A stretch of DNA of 64,000 nt from contig NZ_JQMM01000001.1 in the NCBI RefSeq assembly GCF_000744735.1, forward strand, positions 1,798,001 to 1,862,000, read 5' to 3'. Numbering within the stretch: the stretch's first letter is position 1; every line of letters begins with the position of its first letter. The position numbers and the translations under genes were made by a program. Shown piece after piece: positions 2,485 through 8,520 of the stretch. The notes beneath the pieces are model-generated. The model made no database searches, was not told the origin of the DNA, and saw nothing but the letters and a program-made list of their open reading frames with translations. This DNA is from Porticoccus hydrocarbonoclasticus MCTG13d (GTDB lineage: Bacteria > Pseudomonadota > Gammaproteobacteria > Pseudomonadales > Porticoccaceae).

Positions 2485-2886
2485 ATGAGCGCTCAGGCCG
2501 AACAACTACTGCAACGGGGTTCCAGTGTCACCCGTTCACTGCTGCCGGCGATTTTCAATATCTTCAGCCAATGGCGTCTGACCGGCGCCCAGCAGATGAC
2601 CCTGCTGGGGCTCAGCAACGAGAAGACCCTCTATAACTGGAAGAGCCAACCCGAGAAGGCAAAGCTGACGCGAGACCTGTTGGAGCGGACCAGTTACATT
2701 CTGGGGATCTACAAGTCCCTGCAAATCCTGTTGCCCGATCAGTCGCTGGCCGACAAATGGTTGGACACACCTAACGACAATCCGCTGTTCAATGGCACCG
2801 CACCGCTGGACCGGTTGCTGGCTGGCCATGTGGTCGACCTGGCGGTGGTTAGGAATTTCCTTGATGCGGAGCGGGGTGGCTGGTGA
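2485..2886 (+). CDS. Xre/MbcA/ParS-type antitoxin
   Basis: Antitoxin of a RES-type toxin-antitoxin pair: it binds the toxin and represses the operon. The 133-residue protein has the family layout: an N-terminal helical DNA-binding part (about residues 15-60, with LTGAQQMTLLGLSNEKTLYNW) and a C-terminal toxin-binding domain of the MbcA/ParS/Xre kind (DUF2384), recognisable by the W-L-x-x-P-N-x-N-P-L-F-N-G motif near residues 91-105 and the DLAVVRNFLDAERGGW tail. A GGAGG ribosome site precedes the ATG. The stop overlaps the toxin start (GTGA), so the pair is translationally coupled. The palindromes upstream fit autorepression. Confidence 0.9.
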   Translation: MSAQAEQLLQRGSSVTRSLLPAIFNIFSQWRLTGAQQMTLLGLSNEKTLYNWKSQPEKAKLTRDLLERTSYILGIYKSLQILLPDQSLADKWLDTPNDNPLFNGTAPLDRLLAGHVVDLAVVRNFLDAERGGW

Positions 2887-3587
2887 TTGCTATTAATACG
2901 CTACCCAGTAGCGAGGTCAATGAACCGGTCTATCGGGTCATCCTGGCGCGCTACCCACAGATTCACCTGTTTGAGCGCGTCTCCAATCCACAGGATTGGG
3001 AGGTGCTCTATGCCGTGGAGTCCCTGACCAACCCCCGACTGCGCGATGAAGTCGGCGATATTCGCCTGGTGCCGCCGGAAGACAGGGTCTATGGCGACGG
3101 TGCCTCCTGGATCATGGCTACCTTCACTCATCTTCCGGTGGACAGACGGGGCGGTCGCTTCAACCGGGATTTCGGTATCTATTACTGCGCTGCCGATGAG
3201 GCGGTCGCCATTGCTGAATCGTCCTTCCACCGGGCGCGCTTTCTGCGTGAATCCCGAATCGACAAGACCACCCAGGAGATGCGCGTGATTCGCGCACAGT
3301 TGGGGCCGACCACCCTTCACGATGTACGTCACCTGGCCGGAGACGGGATCTACGATCCCGACCAGTATGGCGAAGCTCAGCAACTGGGTTACGCATTGCG
3401 TGATGCCAAAAGTTTTGGTGTTCACTACCAAAGCGTGAGAGCGGAAGGGGAGTGCTACGGAGTGATGCGTGCCCGAGTGTTGTCCGATGCGATCCACTGG
3501 CGCTATCTGCGCTACCACTATGACCAGGGGGCAGTCGTCAACGTTGAATCCCTCGATGGTAATAGTGGCGGCAGTGGCAGGAGGTGA
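2883..3587 (+). CDS. RES-domain toxin (NAD+-consuming)
   Basis: Toxin partner of the Xre/MbcA antitoxin. Characterised RES toxins break down NAD+, by phosphorolysis in MbcT, or modify a target with it as in ParT, and stop growth. The 234-residue protein has the RES layout: a conserved Arg-rich region (YRVILARYP near residue 17), RRGGRFNRDFGIYYCAADEAVAIAE (about 84-108) where the family has R-F-N, G-x-Y-x-A and a Glu, and a late Gly-rich SVRAEGECYGVMR segment that corresponds to the R-x-x-G stretch. It starts with GTG inside the antitoxin stop. Its stop overlaps the region upstream of the exonuclease, so three genes form one transcript. Confident on family, less on exact chemistry. Confidence 0.88.
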   Translation: MIAINTLPSSEVNEPVYRVILARYPQIHLFERVSNPQDWEVLYAVESLTNPRLRDEVGDIRLVPPEDRVYGDGASWIMATFTHLPVDRRGGRFNRDFGIYYCAADEAVAIAESSFHRARFLRESRIDKTTQEMRVIRAQLGPTTLHDVRHLAGDGIYDPDQYGEAQQLGYALRDAKSFGVHYQSVRAEGECYGVMRARVLSDAIHWRYLRYHYDQGAVVNVESLDGNSGGSGRR

Positions 3588-3592
3588 TGGCA

Positions 3593-4189
3593 ATGTATAA
3601 AGAGCTGCTATGGATCTTCACGCAACTGCCGGACGATTACATCGTCCTTGATACCGAAACCACCGGGCTCCCCGACGAAAATGGCCTACCGGATATCGTG
3701 ACACTTGGCCTCACCGTGGTGAGGAACCGTGAGATAGCGGAATCTGTAGAGTTTAAAACACGACCGCAAAAACGCATTTCAGAAGAAGCACAGTCGATAC
3801 ACGGCATTACCAACGAACAGGCTGTCGAATTTGAATCCTTCAAATCCCAGTGGGATAAGGTCGCCGAATACCTGAAAGATCAGCTAATCGTCATTCACAA
3901 TGCCAGTTTTGACTGGCCAATCCTACTGGATCATATCGCCCGATACGGTTTGCCAATGCCGCCAATTCAAGGTGTATTTTGCAGCCAAAAAGCGGCCATT
4001 CCCTGGGCGCAGGCATTGAATCTCCCATGCAGCCACAGAGGACCGTCGTTAGATACGTTGACGGAAGTGTTGGGCGTTGAAAACCTCAGAGAAAAGAGCA
4101 GTGGAATACATGGAGCAGAGATAGATAGCCAGCAAGCTGCTCAAGTTACAGAGATAATGAGACGCAATGGCGATATGGATTTACTTTAA
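3593..4189 (+). CDS. DnaQ-like DEDDh 3'-5' exonuclease
   Basis: A 3'-5' exonuclease of the DnaQ/epsilon fold. The ExoI motif is DTETTGLP (first Asp and Glu), ExoII is HNASFDWPIL, and ExoIII is HGAEIDSQQAAQV, giving the DEDDh set complete, so it should be active. Length is about 198 residues, a stand-alone exonuclease domain. In-frame starts exist at 3584 (GTG), 3587 and 3593; I chose the ATG at 3593 because the AGGAGG at 3579-3584 sits 8 bases before it. It follows the RES toxin without a gap, an unusual third gene for this toxin-antitoxin family, and precedes two reverse transcriptases. It could process nucleic acid in defence or be an ordinary passenger. Confidence 0.88.
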   Translation: MYKELLWIFTQLPDDYIVLDTETTGLPDENGLPDIVTLGLTVVRNREIAESVEFKTRPQKRISEEAQSIHGITNEQAVEFESFKSQWDKVAEYLKDQLIVIHNASFDWPILLDHIARYGLPMPPIQGVFCSQKAAIPWAQALNLPCSHRGPSLDTLTEVLGVENLREKSSGIHGAEIDSQQAAQVTEIMRRNGDMDLL

Positions 4190-4522
4190 ATCTTGAGTCA
4201 TTAGGATTGAAAATCACTCAATGTGTCGGGTTACGACTACGAAGCAGATACTAATTGAGTAAGGTACCGCGAGAATACCCACAAATGAGTTCCGAGTGGC
4301 GATAGAAATTATTTGTGGTGTGCTTTGCTTTGGGATACATGGTTTGTGTAGTGCTGTTTGATACTAATTAGTCGATTACAACATCAAAAGAATATCTGTG
4401 TGTGACAATACGGCTTAGTGAGAATTGGTGTTGGGCAGTTCTCGGAATACTCGCAGGCCAAACGGCTAGGGCGCATGTACATCCTAGACAAAGGGTGGCT
4501 TATTAATGGAGGCAAGCTGTAG
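4190..4522. other. intergenic region upstream of the reverse transcriptase pair
   Basis: This AT-rich stretch must hold the promoter of the two reverse transcriptase genes, but no convincing -35/-10 pair stands out. It contains a repeated GATACTAATT (4247-4256 and 4360-4369), a TG repeat at 4397-4404, and a purine-rich GGAGG at 4508-4512 before the start codon. Confidence 0.5.
4363..4372. promoter_or_regulatory. palindrome and direct repeat before drt3a
   Basis: ACTAATTAGT is a perfect 10-bp palindrome. The longer word GATACTAATT that overlaps it also occurs at 4247-4256, 113 bp upstream. This could be a regulator site for the defence genes, but the words are short and AT-rich, so chance is possible. 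Confidence 0.3.
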
Positions 4523-5869
4523 ATGCTTGATCAGATGTTCACTGCGGAAAATTTCCGCCGTATCTATGATAGTGAAAACCGGAAGGGTCTTGATCTTGCA
4601 GGTCTCTATTTCCCCGATCTTGAGCCCCATACTCTTGCTGTCCGCAACAAGGTGCAGGAGATTCGTGCGCATCGATCAAGGGAATCCAGCCTCAATGCCG
4701 AAGATTTCAAGCAGCAACTAGACGATCTAAAGGCTGAACTCGCTCATTTGAAAGCAACAAAGTCCGCTGCGATTGACGAGAAAATGAATGAAATTAGCCT
4801 CAAAGTACTGCAGCCTAGCTTCAAAATCGAACTTAGCCAAAAGGGCGGGCCCAAGGGAAAGCCCGTTTATTGTATAGACTCGAAGCCAGAGACCTTTTTT
4901 GTCATCAAACAGCTTCAGCGTAATATCTACCGGATTTATGGCGTCAAACAGGCCAATCGCCACGATCTCGTATGCCAAGTGCGTGATACCGTCGGGACAA
5001 AATTTCCTTTTGAGATGGTTCGGACAGACATCTCAACGTTCTACGAAAGTATTGACAGAAAGAGGCTCACCAAGAAACTTGATAAGGATCAGCTCCTAAG
5101 CCCTTCCTCAAAAAAGTTCATTAATCAGGTATTGGATTCCTACGGGGTTCTATCCGGAACATCCACCGGTATTCCTCGGGGTGTAGGCATCAGCGCTTAT
5201 TTAGCTGAACTCTACTTGCGTCCAGTTGACAAGGCAATTCGCGCCATTCCAGGGCTTATTCTTTACTGCCGTTTTGTCGATGATGTAGTGTCAATCTTTG
5301 CACGTCCTCCCACTGGCACGGATCTTGGCTCATATAAAGATCACGTCATCAAAGTTTTTGCAGAAAATGGTCTGACACACAATCTGGACAAGACTTATGA
5401 GTTTGATTTGAAGAGGCAGGAGCCGAAGAAGTTCGAGTACCTTGGCTATCGATTTCTGGTCCAGCCTGGCCAGTGCCAAATTAAAGCCAGTTCTGCGAAA
5501 ATTCTGAAGTATAAGAACCGCATGAACGCTGCATTTGAAGACTACTGGAAAAACTGCTCCACTGACTCCAGGCGGGCTTATCGTGTTCTTGTATCGCGAA
5601 TAAAGTTTCTAACAGGTAACACTCGCCTTTCGAATAGCAAGTCACGGGCGGTAACGGGGATATATTACAACAACTCCATTGCAAACGATCTCTCTAGTTT
5701 CGAGATGCTGGATAAACTACTGAAGAAACGTGTGGCGAAGATTAAGCGTGCAAGTCTTCGGAAGCGGCTCAAAACTTACAGGTTCACGGATGGTTTTAAG
5801 ACTCGGCGTTTTCATAATTTCAATTCGCGTGAGCTGCAAACGATAGTAAAGGCTTGGAAATATGAGTAA
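4523..5869 (+). CDS. drt3a: DRT type 3 reverse transcriptase A (UG3-like)
   Basis: An RNA-directed DNA polymerase of the unknown-group/Abi class used in phage defence. Within 448 residues: an N-terminal extension with a short charged coiled-coil-like stretch (about 58-95), motif A around Asp169 (VRTDISTFYESID), motif B GIPRGVGIS (216-224), and the catalytic F-V-D-D at 251-254, then YLGYRF (306-311). No maturase, endonuclease or protease domain is present, so it is neither a group II intron protein nor a retroelement. The stop overlaps the start of a second, different RT by 8 bases. Paired overlapping RTs of about 450 and 690 residues are the signature of DRT type 3. The UG3 assignment is by architecture, not by search. 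Confidence 0.82.
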   Translation: MLDQMFTAENFRRIYDSENRKGLDLAGLYFPDLEPHTLAVRNKVQEIRAHRSRESSLNAEDFKQQLDDLKAELAHLKATKSAAIDEKMNEISLKVLQPSFKIELSQKGGPKGKPVYCIDSKPETFFVIKQLQRNIYRIYGVKQANRHDLVCQVRDTVGTKFPFEMVRTDISTFYESIDRKRLTKKLDKDQLLSPSSKKFINQVLDSYGVLSGTSTGIPRGVGISAYLAELYLRPVDKAIRAIPGLILYCRFVDDVVSIFARPPTGTDLGSYKDHVIKVFAENGLTHNLDKTYEFDLKRQEPKKFEYLGYRFLVQPGQCQIKASSAKILKYKNRMNAAFEDYWKNCSTDSRRAYRVLVSRIKFLTGNTRLSNSKSRAVTGIYYNNSIANDLSSFEMLDKLLKKRVAKIKRASLRKRLKTYRFTDGFKTRRFHNFNSRELQTIVKAWKYE

Positions 5870-7928
5870 ACGACGAGCCACTCTCACCCATAGAAAGCAG
5901 CGATCTGTTCTAACAGATATGCTGCCGTTTGAGGTGCCTCCGACCTTCTCCAATCGAGGTTTTTACCGATTTTTAAGAGATCACGATATAGAGATTGATG
6001 ATGGATATATTCGCTGGGTTTCAGATGCCAATGATCTAGATGCAACAATGCAACTGTTATTTGGCATCGAAGACGTGGGCTCGATTAAAACCGAAATTTT
6101 AAGCGAATGGGGGAGGACGAAGACGCGTAGGTATGTTCGTTTGAAAAAATGCAATATGACAACAATACCTTTTAATTTCCAGATTTCTCACAATCTCGAC
6201 GGTCGAACCCTAAGTGTCGTGCATCCTCGCAATCAGGTTGCGGTCGCGAGTTTCTATGCGGCGCAAAGCGCGCTAATTGTTTACTACACTTCTGTAAGTG
6301 ACTTCTCGATTCGGCGGCCGGTTTCGGTATCTCGCCATGCATATTTCAATGACAGATTGCATCAGGAAAAGCTGGATTCCGTCGCCGGTGTGGAAGAAGA
6401 AGACAAGGAATATGAACAGCTTGGCTCTTATTTTGTTTACAAAAAGTACCGCAATATTCACCAGTTCTTTGAGTCGTACAAATATCATCGATGTGAGAAA
6501 AAATATGACGCGATGGTCCAAATAGACGTAAATAAATGCTTTGACAGTATTTATACTCACTCTCTACCTTGGGCTGTGCTCGGCAAGTCGCAGACAAAGT
6601 TCAGTTTATCGGAATCCAAACATACGTTCGGTGGATTGTTCGATACATTGATGCAGAACCTTAATCACAATGAAACCAACGGGATTGTGATCGGGCCAGA
6701 ATTCTCCCGAATTTTTTCAGAGATTATCCTGCAGGCGGTCGATGTCGAGCTTTCGAAGCGTCTGTCCGAAGATTCTAATCTTACGCATAAAATTGATTAT
6801 GAGATTTTTCGTTACGTTGATGACTACTTTGTTTTTTACAATGAGGAGTCTACACAGTTAAAAATTATAGAAACGCTGCAAGTTTTTTTGAAGGTCAATA
6901 AGTTAAGTATTAATACCTCCAAGATTAAGCACTATCAAAAGCCCATCATCACCGAAATCACGATTGCCAAGAATCGCATATCAACGCTACTGAATAACGA
7001 AATCAATCCGGCCACTGAAGATGTTGTAGAGGGCCCTGAGGAGGCAGGGGCTATAAAGCTCGCATGTCCCGTAAATTCAAATCGGCTCATCATTCGCTTC
7101 AAGACGGTAATTAAAGAAACGTCTGTTACCTACGGCGAGCTACTGAATTACACTCTCGCTATTACCGAAAACAAAATCGAAAAACTCTTTCAATCCTATC
7201 TGGCGTGTGACAAAACAATACATGATCAAAAGCAGCTACTTAAATCGCTTTTGGCTATTATGGAGTTCGCATTTTTTGTGTATTCTGCAAACCCGCGCGT
7301 AAATCATACGATTCGGCTTTGCCGGATGATTACAGCCTCAATTGACTTTCTTTGCGTTAATTCACTTCCTTATGAATTGAAGCACTTGCTGTTCAAATAT
7401 GTCCATGACAATGTATTGCAACAGCTGGAAAAAAACGCGATGAAAGCTCATTGTGAAGTCGAAAGCTTATATCTTCTCATTTCTTTGTCGCAAATCGGGC
7501 GAGAGTATTGGCTACCTGAGTCAGTCTTGCTGCGGCATTTTCTCATTACGGAGGAAGAGGCTACGCACAAGTATCAGCGTGTCGGATTCATGAGTCATTT
7601 TTCCATTACGGTGCTGTTGTCTTACATAAAGGATAAAGTCCGCTATGCGAAACTTAAGGCCTTCACTGAAGAGCACATCGTTCGTAAGCTCGAGTATATG
7701 AGAGCGCATTGCCACAATGATGCGGAAGCCATGATCCTTCTATTGGATTTGATTGTATGCCCCTACATTAGCATCGCTACTAAGGACGCGATAGGCCAGA
7801 TTTTCGGGCTGGATGCCACAACACTTGCAGCTATTCAGAAGACCAATGACCACTGGTTTACGGCATGGGGAGACAAATTCGATCTCGGTAAAGAGCTAGA
7901 CGCCAAGCGCAGTCGTGAAGTATATTAG
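5862..7928 (+). CDS. drt3b: DRT type 3 reverse transcriptase B (UG8-like)
   Basis: The second reverse transcriptase of the pair, 688 residues. The N terminus has LPFEVPPTFSNRGFY (21-35), a segment that recalls Abi-type RTs. Motif A is VQIDVNKCFDSI with Asp222, motif B is NGIVIGPEFSRIFSEIIL (273-290), and the catalytic motif is F-R-Y-V-D-D-Y at 316-322. After about residue 360 there is a long all-helical C-terminal domain of roughly 320 residues with no recognised motif, as in Abi-like RTs. It overlaps drt3a by 8 bases, so the two are made together. In this class both proteins are needed for defence and work with a small RNA; a candidate for that RNA begins right at the stop codon. Confidence 0.82.
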   Translation: MSKRRATLTHRKQRSVLTDMLPFEVPPTFSNRGFYRFLRDHDIEIDDGYIRWVSDANDLDATMQLLFGIEDVGSIKTEILSEWGRTKTRRYVRLKKCNMTTIPFNFQISHNLDGRTLSVVHPRNQVAVASFYAAQSALIVYYTSVSDFSIRRPVSVSRHAYFNDRLHQEKLDSVAGVEEEDKEYEQLGSYFVYKKYRNIHQFFESYKYHRCEKKYDAMVQIDVNKCFDSIYTHSLPWAVLGKSQTKFSLSESKHTFGGLFDTLMQNLNHNETNGIVIGPEFSRIFSEIILQAVDVELSKRLSEDSNLTHKIDYEIFRYVDDYFVFYNEESTQLKIIETLQVFLKVNKLSINTSKIKHYQKPIITEITIAKNRISTLLNNEINPATEDVVEGPEEAGAIKLACPVNSNRLIIRFKTVIKETSVTYGELLNYTLAITENKIEKLFQSYLACDKTIHDQKQLLKSLLAIMEFAFFVYSANPRVNHTIRLCRMITASIDFLCVNSLPYELKHLLFKYVHDNVLQQLEKNAMKAHCEVESLYLLISLSQIGREYWLPESVLLRHFLITEEEATHKYQRVGFMSHFSITVLLSYIKDKVRYAKLKAFTEEHIVRKLEYMRAHCHNDAEAMILLLDLIVCPYISIATKDAIGQIFGLDATTLAAIQKTNDHWFTAWGDKFDLGKELDAKRSREVY

Positions 7929-8064
7929 GCGTGGCGCACCGCTCTACCCTTAATGGCTGTTGGCAGCCCACACACAAGCGCCTTCACGACTCCTATATCA
8001 ATTGGGGGTTGGGTAACCAGACGTGCAGGAGCGGGCCGTCTTCCCCACCCACTCTGGCGCCACA
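7929..8064 (+). ncRNA. candidate DRT3-associated structured RNA with ACACACA
   Basis: The sequence directly after drt3b folds into a compact element. GTGGCGC (7931-7937) pairs perfectly with GCGCCAC (8057-8063), closing the whole unit. Inside, 7946-7954 pairs with 8001-8009 over nine positions, two of them G-U. A hairpin with stem GGCTG/CAGCC and loop TTGG (7955-7968) stacks directly on that helix. Immediately after the hairpin comes CACACACAA (7969-7977) with no evident strong partner. A further AGACG/CGTCT stem (8019-8023/8037-8041) and an alternative CTCCT/AGGAG pairing (7990-7994/8027-8031) could form a pseudoknot. As I recall, DRT3 systems use an RNA with an AC-repeat template to make GT-repeat DNA. 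Exact ends and transcription are inferred. Confidence 0.68.
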
Positions 8065-8168
8065 AAAAATGCAGTTTTACTGATGACCAAGCTGGTTTCG
8101 CTTCGAGACTCGGTTTGTCAATGGCGTTGTAGCCGGTACTACCCCAGTGTCTTGATCACATTTGTATT

Positions 8169-8198
8169 CAGAATTCCGGGGACAGTTTACTTAATTAA
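8169..8198 (+). mobile_element. possible solo end of an IS200/RAYT-like element
   Basis: AATTCCGGGGACAGT followed by TTACTTAATTAA closely resembles a sequence I know from next to REP-associated tyrosine transposase genes in many proteobacteria. No transposase gene is present here, so it would be a leftover. It sits at the right edge of the accessory block. The match is from memory. Confidence 0.35.
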
Positions 8199-8520
8199 AT
8201 GTCTGTTATTGGCCGACTGCGAACTAAAGCCTTGATTAATCTCGGGGTTTTTTCTATTCGCTCTTCCTCCGTGCGCAGACTTGAAATAACAACTAGAAAA
8301 CCACCCCACCCACCGAATAGATTTCCCATCGTCTACCGCCTCTAATTCTTGCACAATGCCCCCCGTAACAACTTGCGGGAGCAGCAGTGCCATAAAACGC
8401 CAATTTTGACCATCGACTTTTCTGATCCTAGGCTTGCCTGTCACGTCAGTGGCTTTTACGGATACAGACACCGCCCATGAGCACGGCCTTTTTTACCAGA
8501 TCGTTTAGCAGCACCACTTG
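8187..8520 (-). pseudogene. degraded reading frame, family unknown
   Basis: On the minus strand a frame reads GEYQVVLLNDLVKKAVLMG and then stops, while the neighbouring frame continues from 8471 as VKATDVTGKPRIRKVDG and WRFMALLLPQVVTGGI. Both halves look protein-like and are joined by what would be one frameshift, which suggests a broken gene. The tail runs into the mobile-element-like sequence. I do not recognise the product, and the whole could be chance. Confidence 0.3.

Follow-up and report, generated by a model that had tools for sequence, protein, structure and literature searches.

A probable DRT3 template RNA behind drt3b in Porticoccus hydrocarbonoclasticus belongs to a structurally distinct branch of DRT3 RNAs

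A conserved stretch directly behind drt3b in Porticoccus hydrocarbonoclasticus MCTG13d (positions 7933 to 8041) is very probably the template RNA of a DRT3 antiphage system, acting by the mechanism proposed in the Discussion. All positions are those of the window, the 64,000-nucleotide stretch of contig NZ_JQMM01000001.1 that we analyzed. This kind of RNA and its role as a template are already known; the architecture found here, which we call S-type, differs structurally. A first-pass annotation of the same DNA had interpreted the stretch as an RNA template, and that interpretation is supported. Only the secondary structure that it drew had to be replaced.

Results

The locus encodes two adjacent reverse transcriptases. 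PADLOC identified positions 4523 to 7928 as a DRT3 pair, with Drt3a and Drt3b adjacent (Table 1). Drt3a is the expected user of the RNA template. We matched Drt3b residues to the E. coli enzyme with L071 as the reference: E24, R115, D222, F227, R283, Y318-V-D-D, and Y688 correspond to E. coli E22, R71, D182, F187, R241, YVDD, and Y666. These include the base gates and the priming tyrosine of DRT3 (E22, R241, and Y666), which are present as E24, R283, and Y688; the C-terminal Tyr688 is the presumed priming residue. The two genes overlap by 8 bases, so the window has no room for an RNA between them.

The genome is a single contig of 2,474,654 bases with one copy of drt3b. When 38 genomes were searched with the Drt3b protein, the only match was in the window's own genome; 16 of the 37 others are from the same genus. 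The GC content is 0.44 in the drt3 genes, 0.52 in the window, and 0.61 in the RNA. The low GC content of the genes and their absence from the 37 relatives suggest that they were acquired from elsewhere. Upstream of drt3a (2485 to 4189) are three overlapping open reading frames, which we take to resemble an MbcA/ParS-type antitoxin, a RES-domain toxin, and a DEDD exonuclease.

Table 1. Features of the DRT3 locus (window positions)
Feature	Positions	Strand	Description	Evidence
drt3a	4523..5869	+	Class-2 reverse transcriptase, 448 aa	PADLOC Drt3a E 3.5e-121; PDB relative 9z6y_A E 5.7e-23
drt3b	5862..7928	+	Protein-templated reverse transcriptase, 688 aa	PADLOC Drt3b E 5e-198
Candidate RNA promoter	7897..7926	+	-35 TAGACG, 18 nt, -10 TATATT overlapping the drt3b stop	Consensus scan: 1 found, 0.8 expected by shuffles
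DRT3 template RNA, conserved core	7933..8041	+		22-locus alignment, 87% mean column identity; RNA model R1
P1 5' strand	7933..7937	+	GGCGC	Pairs with 7978-7982 in 22/22 loci, no variation (one end pair excepted)
Candidate pseudoknot strand	7939..7945	+	CCGCUCU; partner GGAGCGG 8028-8034 in P6 loop	99.4% of cells paired, 22 loci, no both-side change
P3 hairpin	7955..7968	+	GGCUG-UUGG-CAGCC	100% of cells paired, one pair changed on both sides
Template loop	7969..7976	+	CACACACA	ACACAC within 420 nt behind drt3b in 53/53 tabulated loci
P1 3' strand	7978..7982	+	GCGCC; one base (A7977) after the 8-nt template	RNAalifold and pair counts
P5 hairpin	7985..8013	+	7985-7987/8011-8013 and 7990-7995/8003-8008, loop UAUCAAU	Both-side changes in 6/9 pairs
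P6 hairpin	8019..8041	+	AGACG..CGUCU; loop contains GGAGCGG 8028-8034	Both-side changes in 3/6 pairs, 100% of cells paired

A conserved RNA with an AC repeat follows drt3b. Among relatives of drt3b (20 loci, 70 to 75% identity), ACACACAAGCGCC occurs after a hairpin at a near-constant distance in all 19 that have downstream DNA, and blastn of 7929-8064 found matches in 24 of 27 loci. An RNA model built from the S-type set (R1) identified a single place in the 2.47-Mb genome, behind drt3b (E 1.7e-24), which ruled out a second copy. The first-pass annotation had described a hairpin at the P3 position with an AC repeat right after it. Both are there: every P3 cell is paired across the 22 aligned loci, CACACACAA is read at 7969-7977, and the CACACACA loop is unpaired in the RNAalifold consensus fold. 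However, the conserved part stops short of 8064, the end of the closed structured unit that it had described. The 3' end of the RNA is uncertain, perhaps near 8050. A scan of the window found no Rfam family at gathering score. Ordinary annotation therefore overlooks the DRT3 template RNA, as had been anticipated.

Comparison defines the secondary structure. We aligned 22 loci and derived a consensus with RNAalifold, which contained P1, P3, P5, and P6, with changes on both sides at 10 of 27 pairs. When a pseudoknot (see below) was added to give the named structure, 98.8% of cells were paired, and 10 pairs had changes on both sides, compared with 2.2 in shuffles. Shifting the partners by 1 to 3 columns reduced pairing to 57% or less. 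P3 is the presumed 5' boundary of the template.

P1 is nearly invariant in the 22 loci; the only covariation in its favor is seen in a few distant lineages, in which we chose the strands by hand. Distant S-type versions of P1 are CGCGC/GCGCG (L022), AGCGC/GCGCU (L072 and L074), and UGCGC/GCGCA (L078), and a shorter helix is at the same place in L051 (GGGC/GCUC) and L079 (GAGC/GCUC). In L072 and L074, another helix near the template outscores P1. Folding energy was no better than that of shuffles (RNAfold, z -0.34). A single-sequence fold of 7931-8049 formed the 7939-7945/8028-8034 helix and left P1 and P6 open, and among five sequences folded singly, only L016 adopted the P1/P5/P6 fold. Because the energy is uninformative and the single folds differ, the structure model rests on comparison rather than on energy.

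The P5 loop UAUCAAU (7996-8002 in the window) is present in 19 of the 22 aligned loci by manual count. UAU-NNA-Y loops that resemble it can be read in L072, L051, and L079. It is perhaps a protein contact.

Two helices drawn in the first-pass annotation were rejected. The strands of its 7-bp closing helix, GTGGCGC (7931-7937) and GCGCCAC (8057-8063), are complementary, and they pair in the best RNAfold structure of 7929-8066. However, the helix was found in the window alone (1 of 22 loci): none of the 21 close relatives has the 7-nt distal partner in the first 220 nt after the stop, and one of them (L005) has a bare GCGCC at +182. Some perfect 7-bp helix also formed in 320 of 1,000 dinucleotide shuffles. 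The nine pairs of its inner helix (7946-7954/8001-8009) can form, but the helix is missing from the best RNAfold structure and no pair has changed on both sides; 89.2% of its cells are paired, which equals shuffled columns. An alignment and covariation comparison of the kind that it had recommended gave a fixed ACACAC and compensatory changes in P3, P5, and P6, with none in the inner helix and a closing helix seen only in the window.

A candidate pseudoknot links P6 to the P1 region. In six lineages with differing sequences, the segment after the P1 5' strand is complementary to a segment 45 to 48 nt after the P1 3' strand. The pairs are CCGCUCU/GGAGCGG in the window, UUCGUCAG/UUGGCGAG in L022, GCGUCC/GGGCGC in L051, and GCAUCC/GGAUGC in L079, with weaker ones in L072 and L078; by manual reading, the best helix in the last two takes part of the apparent P6 stem rather than the P6 loop. 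In L053, where a wider stretch was tested, the pair is CAGCCGUC/GGCGGUUG (p 0.034). In L016, the best helix is elsewhere. Per-locus shuffle tests were weak (p 0.008 to 0.28 in ten loci and L053, the latter over the wider stretch), and Fisher's test over six loci with p values of 0.04 to 0.28 each gave 0.014. An offset of 45 to 48 nt shared by six lineages arose in none of 200,000 random draws, and by four lineages in 50 of 200,000, figures that assume independence for sequences that are related. These complementarities make a pseudoknot between 7939-7945 and 8028-8034 somewhat probable.

DRT3 loci fall into S-type and L-type. We tabulated 53 loci including the window, from genome contigs, plasmids, E. 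coli genomes, phage-like contigs, and other genomes. ACACAC is within 420 nt after the drt3b stop in all 53, whereas base counting predicts it in an estimated one in ten. The residue at the E24 place is E in 49 and D in 4, and the one at the R283 place is R in all 53. In the 30 S-type loci the template starts at +25 to +68 from the stop, and Drt3b has 56 to 69 residues between positions 42 and 104 of the window protein. In the 23 L-type loci the template starts at +92 to +262, and the same interval has 20 to 43 residues. S-type RNAs have a short P1, and the greater part of their length is 3' of the template. The window is S-type (template at +42, 5-bp P1 at +5, 63 residues in the interval), and its RNA differs from the L-type layout, in which a long closing helix encloses a template that starts 92 to 262 nt behind the stop and is close to the 3' end of the RNA.

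R1 matched the RNA place of other S-type loci: L022 (E 1.4e-9) and L072, L073, L074, and L052 (E 1.7e-4 to 2.7e-4). With the most distant S-type RNAs there was no match in L053 or L078 and a weak one in L079 (E 0.11) and L051 (E 0.48). R1 matched none of the L-type loci searched at the RNA place; one weak match (E 0.32) was to the opposite strand, at the end of drt3b in L084. We looked for L-type closing helices in 20 of the 23 loci, omitting L081, L087, and L089 as near copies. The best helices were 6 to 16 bp, with p ≤0.05 in 14 loci and >0.05 in 6. In 16 of the 20 the 5' strand begins between +15 and +23, and in 13 the 3' strand begins 10 to 12 nt after ACACAC.

In a tree of 52 Drt3b proteins, a branch supported at 100/100 set all 29 S-type rows apart, with the program warning that long branches might be joined falsely. 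Therefore, the match between RNA type and protein insertion counts as one event and not as repeated evidence. The S-type branch occurs in E. coli too, where its drt3a matched in 9 of 5,426 genomes, of which we examined 3. No solved structure of the S-type branch was found among the PDB relatives, and the solved Drt3b chains look L-type. Searches of viral_contigs found no locus with a single Drt3b query, 2 with a pattern search, and 32 with an alignment query; one further pattern search had no match.

The 53 loci do not include L018 (contig ends inside the gene), L052 and L093 (drt3b annotated in two pieces with ACACAC at +43, and an in-frame stop with ACACAC at +222, respectively), L095 and L096 (early stop, ACACAC 916 and 928 nt further on), L098 and L100 (partial, ACACAC at +262 and +141), L099, L101, and L108 (no ACACAC within 420 nt behind drt3b), or L109. 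Also left out were L102-L107, L024-L050, and L061-L067, partial matches taken collectively as other reverse transcriptases, and the duplicates L021, L023, L060, L068, L069, L075, L110, and L111. L020 and L070 were kept; L020 was omitted from the tree and codon count, and L070 from the promoter table.

Three loci have an irregular drt3b reading frame or annotation. L020 drt3b (4001-6076) has one in-frame stop, and its RNA is kept. In L070 (E. coli CFSAN064035, drt3b at 4460-6499), the C-terminal reading frame of the annotated Drt3b is unlike that of near copies and there is no terminal Tyr; ACACAC is kept. L052 (E. coli plasmid CP083496.1, 4001-6044) keeps ACACAC behind a drt3b annotated in two pieces, and copies annotated as a single drt3b are on E. 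coli chromosomes.

The end of drt3b may contain the promoter for the RNA. Of the 30 S-type loci, 29 have a motif T(A/T)TA(C/T)T across the drt3b stop, which is TATA(C/T)T in 27. The last four letters of TATA(C/T)T are forced by the Tyr and stop codons, and the Val codon is free. Nevertheless, the Val687 codon is GTA in all 21 loci counted, although GTA makes up only 130 of the 920 Val codons in these genes. It is the sole invariant codon among 167 four- or six-fold codons, out of 370 codons at which the residue is conserved and synonyms exist; invariant codons also number 2 among the 177 two-fold and 1 among the 26 three-fold ones. An invariant Val codon that builds TATA(C/T)T suggests that the RNA has its own promoter. 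L051 and L079 have TTGACA exactly 18 nt before TTTA(C/T)T. At L-type loci, the best-scoring promoter-like pair ends its -10 box at +9 to +12 in 13 of 22, several of which are near copies; the closing helix usually starts about 7 nt further on. A start about 7 nt downstream of the -10 box would therefore fall at P1 in the S-type and at the start of the closing helix in the L-type, which, as an argument from consensus, favors an internal promoter.

Alternatively, TATA(C/T)T might not be a promoter; the RNA might be cut from the operon mRNA, with GTA conserved for a different purpose, for instance as a processing site. Apart from the Val codon, the motif is dictated by the Tyr and stop codons; most loci have a weak -35 match (TAGACG or TGGACG), the highest-scoring pair in L019 and L053 is at another place, and the consensus scan of the window found about what shuffles predict (Table 1). 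However, processing would have to account for a choice of Val codon that no other four- or six-fold position matches, for the TTGACA boxes in L051 and L079, and for the spacing in the L-type loci, and we consider it possible but the less likely explanation. An internal promoter at the end of drt3b is what we favor, with some reserve, and the RNA probably starts at about 7933, a position predicted from the motif.

Readings that place the template RNA elsewhere or dispense with it are very improbable. The stretch could be merely the 3' untranslated region of the drt3 mRNA, or its terminator, with a coincidental AC repeat. By chance, 64 kb of DNA should contain CACACACAA about once (approximately 0.76 times), and neither the folding energy nor the varying single-sequence folds distinguish an RNA. 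However, ACACAC behind drt3b in every tabulated locus and the compensatory changes in the helices make this reading unlikely, and a scan of 7700-8500 found no terminator-like site within 7929-8064, the sole one being at 8226-8251. We give this reading hardly any weight. We regard as equally improbable a working RNA in another place, such as the 333-nt gap before drt3a (4190-4522) that the first-pass annotation had named as an alternative: divergent pairs with a TGTGT run between their genes (L099, L101, L108, and L109) might hint at such an arrangement, as no ACACAC is within 420 nt behind drt3b in the three checked, but the gap had blastn matches at E 1e-3 in 0 of 27 loci (L022 and L068 have little or no DNA upstream of drt3a), compared with 24 of 27 for 7929-8064, and the overlapping drt3 genes of the window have nothing between them.

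The divergent DRT3-like pairs are in phage or phage-like records (L101 2426-6007, L099 2449-5815, L108 3493-7004, and L109 1883-5390), with PADLOC Drt3b E values of 1.7e-113 to 3.1e-130. Their genes are 97 to 289 nt apart, and the TGTGT run is on the + strand (TGTGTGTG in L101). The E and R gates are kept, and the place of the priming Tyr has Ile or Val, followed by Phe. With MAFFT, the four intergenic stretches were hardly alignable. As a lead only, these pairs are possibly a third architecture, with the repeat possibly read from the other strand. If they are counted as DRT3, then ACACAC behind drt3b is not universal.

Discussion

The window holds all the parts of E. coli DRT3, so we infer by analogy the same reactions, products, and defense function. 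Transcription would begin at about 7933, from a promoter with its -10 box over the drt3b stop. In the folded RNA, hairpin P3 and helix P1 would flank the 8-nt loop CACACACA and hold it in place. Drt3a would begin at the 3' side of this loop, copy as far as P3, and then slip back a whole number of AC units for the next round, producing poly(dTdG). P3, directly before the template, would be where copying stops on the 5' side. The complementary strand, poly(dCdA), would come from Drt3b, which would synthesize it out of its own active site (E24 and R283) with Tyr688 as the primer, and the two strands would anneal.

This scheme follows what is described for E. coli DRT3 in the accessible part of the primary report (PMC13174585). 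There, ACACAC in a downstream RNA templates poly-dTdG synthesis by DRT3a, and E22 and R241 of DRT3b direct the synthesis of poly-dCdA, for which Y666 is the primer. Mutations in ACACAC abolish defense and poly-dTdG, Drt3a requires the RNA in vitro, and there is read-through into the stem-loop adjoining the template (PMC13174585), the place that P3 takes in the window. Its covariance model of the DRT3 noncoding RNA is given as having 32 unique hits in the Methods and as covering 41 systems in the legend to Figure 1C (PMC13174585). The first-pass annotation had described DRT3 as using an AC-repeat RNA to make GT-repeat DNA, and poly(dTdG) synthesis by Drt3a in E. coli bears this out (PMC13174585). 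It had also named the RNA as the third DRT3 component, presented to a reverse transcriptase; this agrees with the E. coli literature (PMC13174585) and with the same RNA and template in relatives.

A review from 2026, in the part available, treats it as open whether a single architecture is common to all DRT3 systems or whether subtypes exist whose motif outputs differ (PMC13314766). Our survey is a first answer: the template repeat is constant across 53 loci, and the RNA scaffold is not. A broader proposal, which we put forward tentatively, is that there are at least two DRT3 ribonucleoprotein designs. The 3' domain of the S-type RNA might kiss back onto the P1 region and dock on the extra N-terminal part of Drt3b, the promoter might lie in the last drt3b codons, and the output might be locked to ACACAC because the protein template in Drt3b cannot change alone. 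The S-type branch would allow the needs of the template to be separated from the role of the scaffold. The second architecture, its 3' domain, and the stop-codon promoter may be new. The S-type fold, pseudoknot, and promoter were absent from the DRT3 literature searched, a body that did not extend to two main primary papers, and they are possibly described in Deng et al. 2026.

The window RNA resembles the E. coli DRT3 noncoding RNA in lying behind drt3b, in having an ACACAC loop beside a stem-loop, and in its partners, Drt3a (UG3) and Drt3b (UG8), as far as that RNA is described (PMC13174585). It differs in layout. The template is 42 nt after the stop in the window but 129 nt after it in the E. 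coli-type loci L071 and L081. In L071 the best closing helix is 10 bp from +16 (p 0.08 by shuffles), whereas the window has a 5-bp P1 directly behind the template. The window RNA also has two hairpins 3' of the template. Deng et al. 2026 reportedly describe a 6:6:6 DRT3 complex, of which PDB 9z6y and 9z6z are presumably the entries; from the chain as read, we take PDB 26cz to be the E. coli Drt3b. The window shares with the 6:6:6 complex a Drt3a, a Drt3b, and an RNA with ACACAC. However, the 9z6y Drt3b chain (650 residues) aligns to the L-type L056 over 7-650 and is without the long N-terminal insertion of the window protein. In the DRT3 complex, Glu26 and Arg253 are said to contribute to base choice (PMC13213688, in part). 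More broadly, the RNA is like those of DRT10 and DRT9, class-2 DRT RNAs with a confined template for tandem-repeat DNA, in the passages available (PMC13174585 and PMC12632851). Compared by description, those systems have one reverse transcriptase rather than two and other template sequences.
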